Shown one piece after another: positions 1,550-28,933 of a stretch of DNA of 28,933 bases. The stretch's first letter is position 1. The number at the start of each line of letters is the position of its first letter. This DNA is from a virus. A program made the translations under genes and the position numbers. Under the pieces are notes generated by a model. That model was given only the letters and a program-made list of their open reading frames with translations, made no database searches and was not told where the DNA came from. The DNA lies in IMG/VR virus record IMGVR_UViG_3300017781_000079, positions 1 to 28,933 of that record. One strand, 5' to 3'.

Positions 1550-2130
1550 ATGATTCTCTCTGCTCCATAATATTTATTGGATCAGGCGGCGATCCTTACC
1601 TGGTGGGACAAGCCCACGAAACAATTGGCCAAAGAGAAAAAGCGAAGCCAAGAGATATGAAAAGGCGACAGCCTTTTTGGTTGACTGCGAAGCAGTTGAC
1701 CAGACAACGAGACACACAAGCAGAGTGATTGAGCACTCACACCGCGGGCCAAGTGAATATCATTCAGTTTCACTTATGTTATAGCTATCTATCATATTCT
1801 ATTATTGTGTCATCATACCTGATCAAATGCTAAAGCATTCAATCAACAACCCCTCTTCAATGGGTTGTAGTTGTTAGTTGTTTCTCTATTTGAAGTAGTA
1901 AGATACATTCAGAAAACCAGAAAGTGCTTTTTTACCAGACCACATTGTTTATCGTATCTTGTTTATACCCTTGACTTGGTCTGCTGTCTCAATGTTGTGA
2001 GTTTGAATAACTGCCTGTCGTGTTTACACGGCCTAACACCTTATCATCAACATCGTATAATCCACTTACATCGTTATTTCGCGATACCGCTTCTTATACG
2101 GGTGGGTCTTTCCTTAACCCCAATGTTTCA
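1550..2130. other. Hairpin-rich non-coding stretch beside the HNH gene
   Basis: About 580 bp without a credible protein gene. The part from 1579 to 1867 contains at least nine local inverted repeats: 1579-1583/1591-1595, 1603-1607/1613-1617, 1625-1629/1647-1651, 1660-1666/1671-1677 (loop GACA), 1679-1688/1692-1701 (10 bp, loop GAA, two wobbles), 1723-1727/1734-1738, 1751-1757/1769-1775, 1826-1830/1835-1839 (loop TAAA) and 1847-1852/1862-1867. A further GTCGTG/CACGGC stem with loop TTTA lies near 2017-2032. Such dense, regularly spaced stems suggest a structured RNA, either as the long leader of the HNH mRNA or as a separate non-coding RNA. Strand is undetermined. The stem at 1660-1677 is followed by T runs on both strands and could terminate transcription. 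Confidence 0.5.
2030..2043. repeat. 14-bp repeat GGCCTAACACCTTA, copy 1
   Basis: The 14-mer ggcctaacacctta occurs here, directly after a small GTCGTG/CACGGC hairpin, and again at 2675-2688 inside the loop of the plus-strand terminator. Both copies are in non-coding DNA on either side of the 2131-2466 gene. A chance 14-bp match within 650 bp is unlikely. The function is unknown. Confidence 0.6.
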
Positions 2131-2466
2131 TTATACTATTTTCAATCTGGCTTTCGCAACCTTTTTTTCTGGTAATTCACCTTTTATAACATCAACACCA
2201 CCCACAGCCACTTCTATAGTGCCCAACTTGGGTTTGGATGATCCCATTTTGACCTCTATGTCCTTTTTGTCCTTTGGTTTCATTATCTCCCAATTGGTCC
2301 TTTTGAAGTAGCCACTGTTGTATCGCTTGGCATAATTTATGTCAGCCAGCTTAAACTCCCAGTGATCGTTATACACTGAATCCTTTATTTCTCTCTTGAC
2401 CCACACGAGATTGGTCTTGCCCGTTGCGGCCTTTGGTATCTTTGTTGGATCTGCCTTTTTTCCCAT
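2131..2466 (-). CDS. Unknown 111-residue basic protein
   Basis: I do not recognise a family. The protein is Lys-rich (MGKKADPTKI at the N-terminus; KPKDKKDIEVKMG near residues 63-75) with a mixed alpha/beta-like centre (VKREIKDSVYNDHWEFKLAD). No membrane segment or signal peptide is visible. The ATG at 2466 has no Shine-Dalgarno sequence. Instead TATAAATA ends only 8 nt before it, so transcription from that promoter would give a leaderless or nearly leaderless message. It is the first gene of late block 2, and its transcript would run on through the hairpin-rich stretch to the HNH gene. Its position suggests a late or accessory product. That it is a real gene is likely; its role is unknown. 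Confidence 0.6.
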   Translation of the reverse strand: MGKKADPTKIPKAATGKTNLVWVKREIKDSVYNDHWEFKLADINYAKRYNSGYFKRTNWEIMKPKDKKDIEVKMGSSKPKLGTIEVAVGGVDVIKGELPEKKVAKARLKIV

Positions 2467-2474
2467 AGTAATGT

Positions 2475-2509
2475 TATTTATAAAATAACGAAAAAATCAC
2501 GACAAAACG
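2475..2509 (-). promoter_or_regulatory. Phage-type promoter, copy A (start of late block 2)
   Basis: Reading down the minus strand, CGTTTTGTCGTGATTTTT is followed by 8 bases and then TTATAAATA. The same arrangement, with one substitution (C for T) in the upstream box and identical spacing, is found at 19351-19386 before late block 1. If TATAAA is the -10, a 17-bp spacer puts TTGTCG at -35 (4 of 6 matches to TTGACA). The conserved box extends well beyond a -35, which suggests a binding site for a phage activator. The predicted start of transcription falls next to ATG 2466. Confidence 0.65.
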
Positions 2510-2510
2510 G

Positions 2511-2539
2511 TTGATATTTCTTTCTTTTTAGTATATAAA
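2511..2539 (+). promoter_or_regulatory. Plus-strand sigma70-like promoter, divergent from copy A
   Basis: TTGATA (2511-2516), a 17-bp spacer and TATAAA (2534-2539) match the sigma70 consensus at 5 of 6 positions in each hexamer. It is back to back with the minus-strand promoter at 2475-2509. No plus-strand protein gene follows; the next feature on that strand is the intrinsic terminator at 2655-2709. Confidence 0.65.
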
Positions 2540-2654
2540 TAATATTAGCATTGTTAACTTAGGCATAGTTATAGTGCTCCCTAAAGATAGATCTAATCTA
2601 TCTGCTTAAGAAGAGTTGTGTTTCCTACTGCCATAGTCGCAACTCCTATTACTT

Positions 2655-2709
2655 AAAACGGTCCTGCTACTTTTGGCCTAACACCTTAGTAGCACGGCCG
2701 TTTTTTTTA
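2655..2709 (+). terminator. Strong intrinsic terminator (plus strand; also usable from the minus strand)
   Basis: The arms ACGGTCCTGCTACT (2658-2671) and AGTAGCACGGCCGT (2688-2701) pair over 14 positions with one G-U and one C-C mismatch. Flanking A residues (2655-2657) extend the pairing into the T run 2701-2708. On the minus strand the same stem is followed by only four T residues, so it should work less well in that direction. It could still end transcripts of late block 1, whose last genes lie just upstream on that strand. Confidence 0.85.
2675..2688. repeat. 14-bp repeat GGCCTAACACCTTA, copy 2 (terminator loop)
   Basis: This is an exact copy of the 14-mer at 2030-2043. Here it occupies most of the loop of the terminator hairpin, where it would be single-stranded in the plus-strand RNA and free to pair with or bind a partner. 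Confidence 0.6.
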
Positions 2710-2772: not shown

Positions 2773-2949
2773 TTATGAAAATATGATGGTTTTATATTGA
2801 TTGTAGTAATATTCGTCATCTTCTACCTCATATGCTTCATATCCATAAAAGTGTAATAGATACTCACAAAAGGTGAATCTGAATAAAGGTGTGCTGAATT
2901 TTAGATCTGGTATTGCTTCGAGATTAAGCGAAGAAAGTCGCGATGACAT
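2773..2949 (-). CDS. Possible small protein, 58 residues, unknown
   Basis: From ATG 2949 the frame gives a 58-residue product with a hydrophobic, aromatic middle and an acidic, tyrosine-rich C-terminus (YEVEDDEYYYNQYK). It overlaps the end of the XhlA-like gene by 26 bp and is the last frame before the terminator at 2655-2709. The ribosome site is weak (GGCGG about nine bases upstream). A longer version starting at 3045 would overlap the XhlA-like gene by 122 bp and is less likely. The composition looks protein-like, but there is no recognised family, so this is a tentative gene. Confidence 0.35.
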   Translation of the reverse strand: MSSRLSSLNLEAIPDLKFSTPLFRFTFCEYLLHFYGYEAYEVEDDEYYYNQYKTIIFS

Positions 2950-3163
2950 TTGAAGCCGCCAATATAACGATACCAAAAAGTATTGACCAAACCCTTGTGT
3001 CAAGTTTCTCAATCTTTCTGTCCATTGATCCCATCGTTGATTCAATGTGGGCGAGGTGATTATTTTTTATAGTCTTTATGTCCGTGGAGATTATCTTGGT
3101 GTCTATTTCAAGCTGAGTTAGTCTAACTTCTGCTTTGGCTTTTTCTAACTCAATCTTGTCCAT
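2924..3163 (-). CDS. XhlA-like coiled-coil and membrane-anchor protein (lysis-associated candidate)
   Basis: A 79-residue protein with a long charged helix (MDKIELEKAKAEVRLTQLEI, continuing to about residue 55) predicted as coiled coil, then one C-terminal membrane segment (VWSILFGIVILAASNVIATF, about 58-77). This two-part plan matches haemolysin XhlA and related phage lysis-cassette proteins, which associate with the membrane and cooperate with a holin. I choose ATG 3163 because it overlaps the stop of the preceding small gene as TAATG. A TTG at 3196 would also be open but lies inside that gene. Its place at the end of the virion operon fits a lysis or membrane role. The family assignment rests on architecture rather than strong sequence motifs. 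Confidence 0.55.
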   Translation of the reverse strand: MDKIELEKAKAEVRLTQLEIDTKIISTDIKTIKNNHLAHIESTMGSMDRKIEKLDTRVWSILFGIVILAASNVIATFFA

Positions 3164-3264
3164 TAAACCCCAATCCATTTTTTGATCAATTTCCAAAGTT
3201 GTTTAAATGGCCATTTGATCACGGACCAAACCCAATTTGTAATTTTACATACTCTACATTTCAT
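3163..3264 (-). CDS. 33-residue cationic Trp/Lys-rich amphipathic peptide (candidate lysis peptide)
   Basis: The peptide begins MKCRVCK and continues with a helix-like segment holding five Trp and most of the Lys residues (WVWSVIKWPFKQLWKLIKKW, residues 11-30). It has no Asp or Glu, seven Lys and one Arg. ATG 3264 follows AGGAGATTAACAT, a good ribosome site that overlaps the stop codon of the upstream gene. Its own stop overlaps the next ATG as TAATG, so it sits in a tightly coupled chain. A CxxC pair lies at residues 3-6. The composition resembles membrane-active peptides. Together with the XhlA-like neighbour and the absence of an endolysin, I infer a possible role in membrane disruption at lysis. 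No family is recognised. Confidence 0.65.
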   Translation of the reverse strand: MKCRVCKITNWVWSVIKWPFKQLWKLIKKWIGV

Positions 3265-19350: not shown

Positions 19351-19386
19351 TATTTATAATATACACTAAAAATCACGACGAAACGA
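19351..19386 (-). promoter_or_regulatory. Phage-type promoter, copy B (start of late block 1)
   Basis: The minus strand has CGTTTCGTCGTGATTTTT, 8 bases, then TTATAAATA. It matches the element at 2475-2509 in 26 of 27 defined positions (one T/C difference) with identical spacing between GTCGTGA and TATAAATA (14 nt). It overlaps the end of the 19373-19591 gene and precedes the 199-residue gene by about 28 nt. Best interpretation: a promoter for the head and tail operon. Confidence 0.7.
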
Positions 19387-27055: not shown

Positions 27056-28933
27056 TTATGTCACATCCGCCCAACTTGATCCGTCATAGACTCTTACTTT
27101 GTTTGATGTTGTGTTGAAATATATGTCACCAGCATCTTTATCAGTTGTTGGGTCACTGCTCGCTGTGTGTAATTTCAACGAGCCACCTAATTTTACTTTG
27201 TCTTTTGAAGCATCAACCCTTAACACATCATCCACATCATCTCCGTGGACTCTGAAATCCACATCTAATTTTTGTGGATTCACTTTGATCTGATCACCAA
27301 TTCTAAGTTTTTCTGTTTCAGCACTTGATCCTGCCGCTGTGCCTGTGTCAAGTGTCCTAAATTCAATTTGACCACCCATCGCTGTTGCTGAGTGATCTTC
27401 AGAAGCTCTAATATCAACCGTCCCACAACCATAACTGAATACACTGTTACCAGCACCATCATCTCCTTGGTAAGGTGCTCCAAAGAATCTAAAGATGATG
27501 TCACCTTCTTCCAAGTAAGTGTCATCACCGTAATCTGATCCACCTGTTGGTCTCGCTTTAGCGGCCCATATGTTGTTGTATCCGTTTATTGAGTTGTTTT
27601 TCAATACCAATGCTGGATATTCATATTGACCATTACCTTCAACCTGTATACCAGTGTTGAATAACATACTTGATCCTGATGAATCACCCTCAGGTGCTCC
27701 ATAGTTGGCTCCATTGTTTGTGCCTTGGTTACCATTGTGTATGATCAAACCATTAGCATTGTGTTGCTCTATGATGTTTGTTTTGGCTCTTATTTGTCCC
27801 GTGCCATTTGGCTCAATGGTTAAGTTTCCATTGCTCGCTGTTATCAGCTTACCGCCGATCAATAATGTTTCATCTGTGGCATCTATCTTCAAGATATTGC
27901 TGTTGGTGTCACCATTTACGACAAAGTCTAAATTTTTATTGTCTGGGTTAATTACTAATTCTGATCCTACCAATGACAGTCCAACGATCCTATCGTTTGA
28001 TGTGGTGCCTGAGCCACCTGACTGTCCTGATGGTAACACATCAAAGATCATTTTACCACCTCTGGTATCTCCAGAGAATAGCTCATTGGCTGATGTTGTT
28101 ATCGTCGCACTTGGTGCCGCATCACTGCTACCACCATAACCCGTGCCATCGTGTCCATAGAAATTGATCTGGCCCATTCGTTTGCCTGAAGCCAGTGCTG
28201 ATGGTGATGCCGCTGTGCCATTTGATGCTTTGAAGTTAAACTGACCATTTGGGAAGTTTGTAAATGCACCACCTGCCGCTGAGTCACCTAATTTGTTTCT
28301 CAATGGGTTTGATCCATCTACCCCTTGTCCATTTGATATGATATCAATCACTGGCCAAGTGTTACCCGTGTTACCAACTATGATACCTGAAAGGTTGTAT
28401 GCTGAATTGTTGTTGTTTGGTGAAGCACCTGTTGAGCTAAATTCATTTGCTGTTGACCCAATCCTGATACCTCTGTCAATATCCAATATGGTGTCATATT
28501 TTGTTGCGGCTGTGCCTGAATCAGCATTTGTGGTATTTTCCACATAGTCATAATCTCTAAATTCCGCCGCCGTCTGTAGTGTGCCTCCAGCATCTTTGAC
28601 TTTCAAGTGTATCTCTTTGTCTGTTGTGTCTGCTGATACAGTAATATTGGCTGAGCTTGATGTTATTGTTTTATCCAACACATCCAATGACCCACCCAGT
28701 TGCGGACTTGTATCTTCTGATAAGTTTTCTAAAGGTGAAACTGCAACAAATTCCAATGCTGAAGCACCTGAATTGACTTTTACAAATTTTGATCCCGCTG
28801 ATGTGAAGTTGGCTGGTGTGTCTGTTAATCCTACAAATGTTGATCCTGAGTCATCTGCTATGATGAATTTACTTGTGGTTGAATCATATTTCAATATCTT
28901 ACCATTTGCTACACCAGTTGTATTAACATCTGA
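27056..28933 (-). CDS. Large tail-fibre protein, C-terminal part (start is at 591 on the other end)
   Basis: This is residues 157-781 of the fibre (window edge; residue 170 is an internal Met at 28894). The body has Gly/Ser/Asn-rich, beta-rich repeats (for instance LLIGGKLITASNGNLTIEPN followed by GTGQIR), segments with GNTGNTWPVIDIISNGQG, and a knob-like C-terminus with SDPTTDKDAGDIYFNTTSNK followed by VRVYDGSSWADVT. Bases 28811-28933 duplicate bases 1-123 of the window and should be counted once. The stop lies at 27056 and the next gene starts at 27014. It is probably a receptor-binding side fibre. Confidence 0.85.
   Translation of the reverse strand, partial: SDVNTTGVANGKILKYDSTTSKFIIADDSGSTFVGLTDTPANFTSAGSKFVKVNSGASALEFVAVSPLENLSEDTSPQLGGSLDVLDKTITSSSANITVSADTTDKEIHLKVKDAGGTLQTAAEFRDYDYVENTTNADSGTAATKYDTILDIDRGIRIGSTANEFSSTGASPNNNNSAYNLSGIIVGNTGNTWPVIDIISNGQGVDGSNPLRNKLGDSAAGGAFTNFPNGQFNFKASNGTAASPSALASGKRMGQINFYGHDGTGYGGSSDAAPSATITTSANELFSGDTRGGKMIFDVLPSGQSGGSGTTSNDRIVGLSLVGSELVINPDNKNLDFVVNGDTNSNILKIDATDETLLIGGKLITASNGNLTIEPNGTGQIRAKTNIIEQHNANGLIIHNGNQGTNNGANYGAPEGDSSGSSMLFNTGIQVEGNGQYEYPALVLKNNSINGYNNIWAAKARPTGGSDYGDDTYLEEGDIIFRFFGAPYQGDDGAGNSVFSYGCGTVDIRASEDHSATAMGGQIEFRTLDTGTAAGSSAETEKLRIGDQIKVNPQKLDVDFRVHGDDVDDVLRVDASKDKVKLGGSLKLHTASSDPTTDKDAGDIYFNTTSNKVRVYDGSSWADVT
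28811..28933. repeat. Terminal overlap, right copy (circular contig)
   Basis: Identical to bases 1-123. Removing one copy closes the genome at about 28,810 bp and restores the fibre reading frame without a gap. Confidence 0.93.

Follow-up and report, generated by a model that had tools for sequence, protein, structure and literature searches.

A gap between minus-strand genes of the phage genome analysed here very probably holds a gene for a small RNA, encoded on the plus strand at 2547-2709 (Table 1). The genome was read as one stretch of 28,933 bases, referred to below as the window, which is the whole or nearly the whole genome of a siphovirus-like phage, uncultured and aquatic. Judging from its sequence, we give about even chances to the view that this is a late phage small RNA that acts as an antisense regulator of translation initiation. 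The features computed for the case are the promoter class, the fold, the strand preference, the recurrence of the design in eight further phages and an excess of short modules complementary to translation starts.

Table 1 Features of the small RNA unit and its surroundings in the window.
Feature	Position	Strand	Basis or remark
Small RNA, ~160 nt, non-coding	2547-2709	+	Fold and design conserved in relatives
Promoter element TATAAATA of the small RNA, phage late-type	2534-2541	+	Exact match; TAAATA-type element at the matching place in relatives
5' hairpin, GGCAU in loop	2547-2578	+	Fold prediction and sibling substitution
Second hairpin, A+T-rich GATAGATC/GATCTATC-like stem	2585-2603	+	Fold prediction
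Third hairpin	2613-2645	+	Fold prediction
Intrinsic terminator: long stem 2655-2700, then T8 2701-2708	2655-2708	+	T-run follows the stem on this strand
Module 1: GGCAU 2562-2566, CUCCC 2577-2581	2562-2581	+	Complement of GGGAG-N10-AUGCC
Module 2: GCCAU 2630-2634, CUCCU 2643-2647	2630-2647	+	Complement of AGGAG-N8-AUGGC
Divergent TATAAATA of the structural strand	2475-2482	-	Back to back with the small RNA promoter
Neighbouring small gene, 111 aa	2131-2466	-	Read from the divergent promoter
Pair of overlapping small genes flanking the slot on its far side; coiled-coil gene 2924-3196	2773-3196	-	Homologues mark the slot in relatives

The small RNA unit and its setting

The window begins and ends with an exact 123-base direct terminal repeat (1-123 and 28811-28933). 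Though its record is classed as linear, it is probably a complete genome, because a sibling contig (L001), 99.5-99.7% identical to it, spans the window ends and runs across the terminal-repeat junction. Genes were called by simple ORF rules, and every recognisable one is carried by the minus strand: terminase, portal, capsid, tape measure, tail tip, HNH endonuclease and methyltransferase. The RNA unit sits on the plus strand in the gap between the minus-strand genes ending at 2773 and beginning at 2466, and overlaps neither these nor any other minus-strand gene. Small genes weakly similar to the neighbouring one (2131-2466) lie at the matching place in three relatives (L006, L113 and L133). 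A search of genome contigs with the tail-tip protein returned no host or prophage.

The RNA (2546-2709) folds at -48.2 kcal/mol, and none of 200 shuffles did as well; two computations gave z-scores of -4.8 to -5.2. The first-pass annotation of this DNA had described three stems and a terminator with eight T residues: the terminator is as described, but the prediction contains four hairpins, its own stem included. It is missing from our intrinsic-terminator scan because its loop exceeds the limit of that scan. The start of the transcript, about 2547, is placed by its spacing after TATAAATA. No ORF of note lies on the plus strand of the unit, in agreement with the earlier reading that no plausible peptide is encoded there; a peptide on either strand was considered and rejected, and ARAGORN found no tRNA or tmRNA in the window. 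As is generally required of a phage small RNA gene, a promoter and a terminator of its own enclose a non-coding stretch, and the structure is conserved on the RNA strand in relatives.

A long non-coding stretch also separates the small divergent gene from the HNH endonuclease gene (window 1774-2130; L217 5735-6307). No unusual fold was detected in it (window 1780-2125, z -0.7) or in its L217 counterpart. A 14-base repeat, GGCCTAACACCTTA, occurs once in this stretch (2030-2043) and once in the loop of the RNA's terminator (2675-2688); we found no role for it.

Promoter

The promoter had been annotated as TTGATA (2511-2516), 17 nt and TATAAA (2534-2539). Both hexamers are present, but the second is part of TATAAATA, and this promoter class of the phage describes the site better: TTGATA, a possible -35 element, is not conserved in relatives. 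Sigma-70-type matches number 62 in the window, with 54.5 expected by chance; alone, such a match is worth nothing here, and the weight is carried by TATAAATA. Promoter and terminator consensus scans of the window as a whole are at chance level, and the case must therefore rest on comparison.

TATAAATA occurs 19 times in seven genomes. All but one of the copies (18/19, 95%) are intergenic and 15/19 lie at most 60 nt upstream of a start, as against 35% and 17%, respectively, for control 8-mers of the same letters in these genomes. Because of this enrichment over same-letter 8-mers, we read TATAAATA as a working and genuine promoter motif of these phages. The copy in the RNA unit is the only one on the opposite strand in the window, G033 (L133) and G034 (L138); the unit carries the variant GCTAAATA in L006, L179 and L217, GATAAATA in L244 and TAATAAATA in L113. 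The T4 late promoter is the same octamer as TATAAATA, and that of the marine cyanophage S-PM2 is NATAAATA (PMC2984593). As expected of a T4-type late promoter, TATAAATA is found at the -10 position upstream of genes. Late timing of the RNA is read from the promoter motif only, because no gp55-like sigma factor was recognised by Pfam or PHROGs among the unassigned proteins scanned; gp55 homologues diverge strongly.

The phage-type minus-strand promoter from which the unit had been said to diverge is indeed present (Table 1), and the stretch between the two promoters can be aligned among most relatives. In front of the divergent gene, TATAAATA (window 2466-2482, minus) or, in relatives, TGTAAATA (L006 8680; L244 360) stands ~8 nt before the ATG. 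Because the promoter is so close and the gene has no Shine-Dalgarno sequence in the window, L006 or L244, this arrangement suggests a message that is leaderless or nearly so. The TATAAATA promoters at window 19351-19385 and 2475-2506 (minus) have an upstream stretch in common, TTTYGTCGTGATTTTT, which is possibly an activator site.

Recurrence of the unit in related phages

Scans with the neighbouring proteins yielded phages that have the gene block in common; all relatives are metagenomic virus records, mostly fragments. An opposite-strand unit of like design occupies the slot beside the HNH/head genes in seven of them: L006, L244, L113, L133, L138, L179 and L217. The slot gap between the coiled-coil gene and the HNH/head genes was read in six (L006, L113, L133, L138, L179 and L217), and L244, a cousin of L006, was found by a search with the L006/L179 terminator pattern, whose matches were otherwise mostly unrelated DNA. 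An eighth unit, in the more distant phage L123, lies elsewhere in the genome and has the order TATAAATA, hairpin, UUCCUCCU, hairpin, U5. It came from a scan of all fetched loci for an opposite-strand TAAATA, hairpin and T-run, which also picked up known members.

The shared design begins with a TAAATA promoter and a hairpin close to where the RNA is predicted to start, continues with UCC and ends in a closing hairpin, in most cases with a U-run after it. The U-run follows the last hairpin on the RNA strand only; it is strong in the window, L006, L244, L179, L217 and L123, and weak in L113, L133 and L138. Within the RNA itself, outright alignment is limited to L006, L244 and L179, and most members share the design and not alignable sequence. 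With that restriction, conservation of the stems in relatives, on which the first-pass annotation had staked its proposal, is borne out by the recurrence of the design, and a free-standing small RNA on the opposite strand, with seven counterparts at the slot and an eighth elsewhere, is still the best reading of the unit.

The same annotation had placed the RNA opposite to every other gene, which is true of the window but does not extend to most relatives: in L006, L113, L133, L138 and L179 the slot also holds at least one protein gene opposite to the structural genes. Ahead of that gene and on its strand, the order is TAAATA-type promoter, hairpin(s), UCC, strong closing hairpin and sigma-70-like promoter. 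In the window and L217 the RNA unit is present and the opposite-strand gene absent.

Four of these genes encode a family of ~200-aa proteins with 33-54% identity (L006 7837-8427, L113 5651-6259, L133 13366-13989 and L179 6157-6789, minus). Each has a strong sigma-70-like promoter, and an early or accessory role is likely. The opposite-strand protein of L138 (15168-16133, minus) contains a DGGHR motif and is perhaps ParB-like; its PHROGs match is weak and unnamed. Searches of Pfam and PHROGs gave no useful identity for the opposite-strand proteins of the relatives.

Strand preference and conservation of stems

For each of the seven members first collected, the better fold is that of the RNA strand (z -3.2 to -5.9, versus -1.4 to -3.8 for the complement). 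Within the 5' hairpin, L006 and L244 differ by three substitutions in ten pairs, and all three keep the pairing through G-U; the one substitution in the sibling of the window, A2573G, likewise turns a U-A pair into U-G (1/1). On the other strand, each of these changes would leave one sequence of the pair with an A-C mismatch. Covarying pairs had been named in advance as evidence to look for, and these one-sided, pairing-preserving changes go part of the way: no two-sided compensatory change was seen in either comparison (L006/L244 or window/sibling), and the covariation evidence is therefore modest. L006 and L244 are also identical over 34 nt of the second (module) hairpin and 37 nt of the terminator, and their adjacent gene has diverged to roughly two thirds identity (a fraction read off the alignment).

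Modules complementary to translation starts

The RNAs carry a recurrent signature, CAU-N5-11-UCCY (UCCU, UCCC or CUCC), which is complementary to a start codon preceded, at working distance, by a Shine-Dalgarno sequence, as an antisense RNA against translation initiation would be (a correspondence noticed post hoc). Eleven such modules occur in seven RNAs, with 1.02 expected from dinucleotide shuffles; this count is post hoc, since the pattern was defined on the same sequences in which it was counted. Each of the seven has at least one module, and the complement strand has none. As a rule the CAU falls within a hairpin loop or next to it, and the UCC follows the stem immediately. In L123, which was added afterwards, the anti-Shine-Dalgarno part is present but CAC replaces CAU.

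These features suggest how the RNA could work; its actual transcription, late timing and antisense action we infer. The TATAAATA promoter, of the class used for the structural-strand genes, would start a transcript of ~160 nt from the opposite strand late in infection, and the intrinsic terminator would end it. In each of its two modules, the complement of a start codon would be exposed within a hairpin loop or next to it, and an anti-Shine-Dalgarno sequence (CUCCC or CUCCU) would come 8-10 nt further on. The RNA would then most likely pair with start codons and their ribosome-binding sites in messages of the phage, the host or both, so that translation initiation would be blocked and the paired messages probably exposed to RNases.

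When the phage start regions of the seven genomes were compared for pairing, none favoured the modules over controls in which CAU and UCC were retained. This speaks against a single conserved target in the phages, and host messages or broad binding are the options left. It is conceivable, if rather doubtful, that the family consists of late RNAs with one or two interchangeable anti-initiation hairpins, whose broad binding to ribosome-binding sites would, in the late phase of infection, reduce the translation of host messages or early ones.

Alternative explanations

The main rival, which we consider unlikely but take seriously, is that the slot is a two-way promoter region whose terminator merely stops the opposite transcript, the RNA itself being functionless. 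The terminator would then keep this transcript out of the tail operon or, in relatives, out of the opposite-strand gene, which has a sigma-70 promoter to itself. Two TAAATA promoters do lie back to back, and in five relatives the terminator comes just before the sigma-70 promoter of the opposite gene. This would explain a promoter and a terminator, but not the conserved hairpins, the G-U-preserving changes or the modules; moreover, the window and L217 keep the whole unit without an opposite gene to insulate.

By its position, the RNA is also the perfect complement of any structural-strand transcript passing through 2547-2709, so that it could pair over its full length with putative read-through and lead to an RNase III cut separating the tail from the HNH/head part, in the manner of lambda OOP, whose effect on cII mRNA depends on RNase III (PMC12197685). 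We regard this as improbable: there is no gene opposite the RNA, and perfect complementarity requires no conserved modules or hairpins.

On the other strand, the module sequences can just as well be taken for ribosome-binding sites of mini-ORFs (MAVGNTTLLKQID and MPKLTMLILFIY in the window), and the structural strand might thus be the functional one, providing leader peptides or ribosome landing sites. The spacing from Shine-Dalgarno to start is in the working range, with one or two sites in each of the seven RNAs. A coding role was rejected because the peptides lack conservation, come down to three codons in L113 and L133, and are set apart by an indel in L006 versus L244; since fold and U-run also favour the RNA strand, we hold any such function of the structural strand to be quite improbable. 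That an A+T-rich intergenic gap has acquired a promoter-like site and hairpins by chance would agree with the chance-level consensus scans, but is very hard to reconcile with recurrence at one slot in seven relatives with strand-specific folding.

Relation to known phage RNAs

To our knowledge, the small RNAs that phages of uncultured aquatic bacteria encode are poorly known. The C4 antisense RNA of P1/P7 is a folded phage RNA that acts on a ribosome-binding region by means of short, separated stretches of complementarity; the RNA described here differs from C4 in promoter and position, and neither the window nor its relatives match it in Rfam at gathering score. P22 sar is a small RNA encoded against the coding strand that pairs with the initiation region of ant mRNA and blocks initiation (PMC12197685). 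The window RNA resembles it as a small opposite-strand phage RNA with complementarity to initiation regions (here from sequence alone), but sar lies opposite its own target, and here no gene start is opposite. Lambda OOP, a short opposite-strand transcript in a phage operon region (PMC12197685), likewise has its own promoter and terminator, but it overlaps cII and works with RNase III, whereas the window RNA overlaps nothing and its modules match ribosome-binding sites. Both sar and OOP are placed opposite the gene they regulate; at the corresponding place in our phages there are only the unconserved mini-ORFs. CfrI of S-PM2 is an antisense RNA of ~225 nt from a marine lytic phage that has NATAAATA as its late promoter, and a homing endonuclease gene lies nearby (PMC2984593). 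It resembles the window RNA in the antisense action proposed for the latter, in the late-type promoter motif of the phage and in a neighbouring endonuclease gene; unlike the window RNA, CfrI overlaps the psbA and endonuclease genes, S-PM2 is a large T4-like myovirus, and no shared structure is known.

Rfam gave no match at gathering score for the window or seven relatives, the best weak match being MicX at 13 bits against a cut-off of 75, and 50,697 records of annotated phages contained no DNA relative of the RNA above noise. Neither strand of DSL-LC06, the annotated phage closest in gene order, contains TATAAATA; copies do occur in HTVC202P, but none was matched to such an RNA unit. On these searches, the window RNA and its relatives are a new family of phage small RNAs, belonging to no tested known family. 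Novelty had been predicted for the case that RNA databases held no match, and none was found in Rfam; phage small RNAs as such are already known, however, and the novelty lies in this family and in the complementarity of its modules to ribosome-binding sites.

RNA-family libraries that rely on alignable sequence miss families which keep their design but not their sequence. The proposal made here is directly testable, with the promoter class, start, end and candidate pairing modules all given. Should the modules prove functional, they would direct this phage RNA to the starts of translation, possibly across messages in general and not to a single one.
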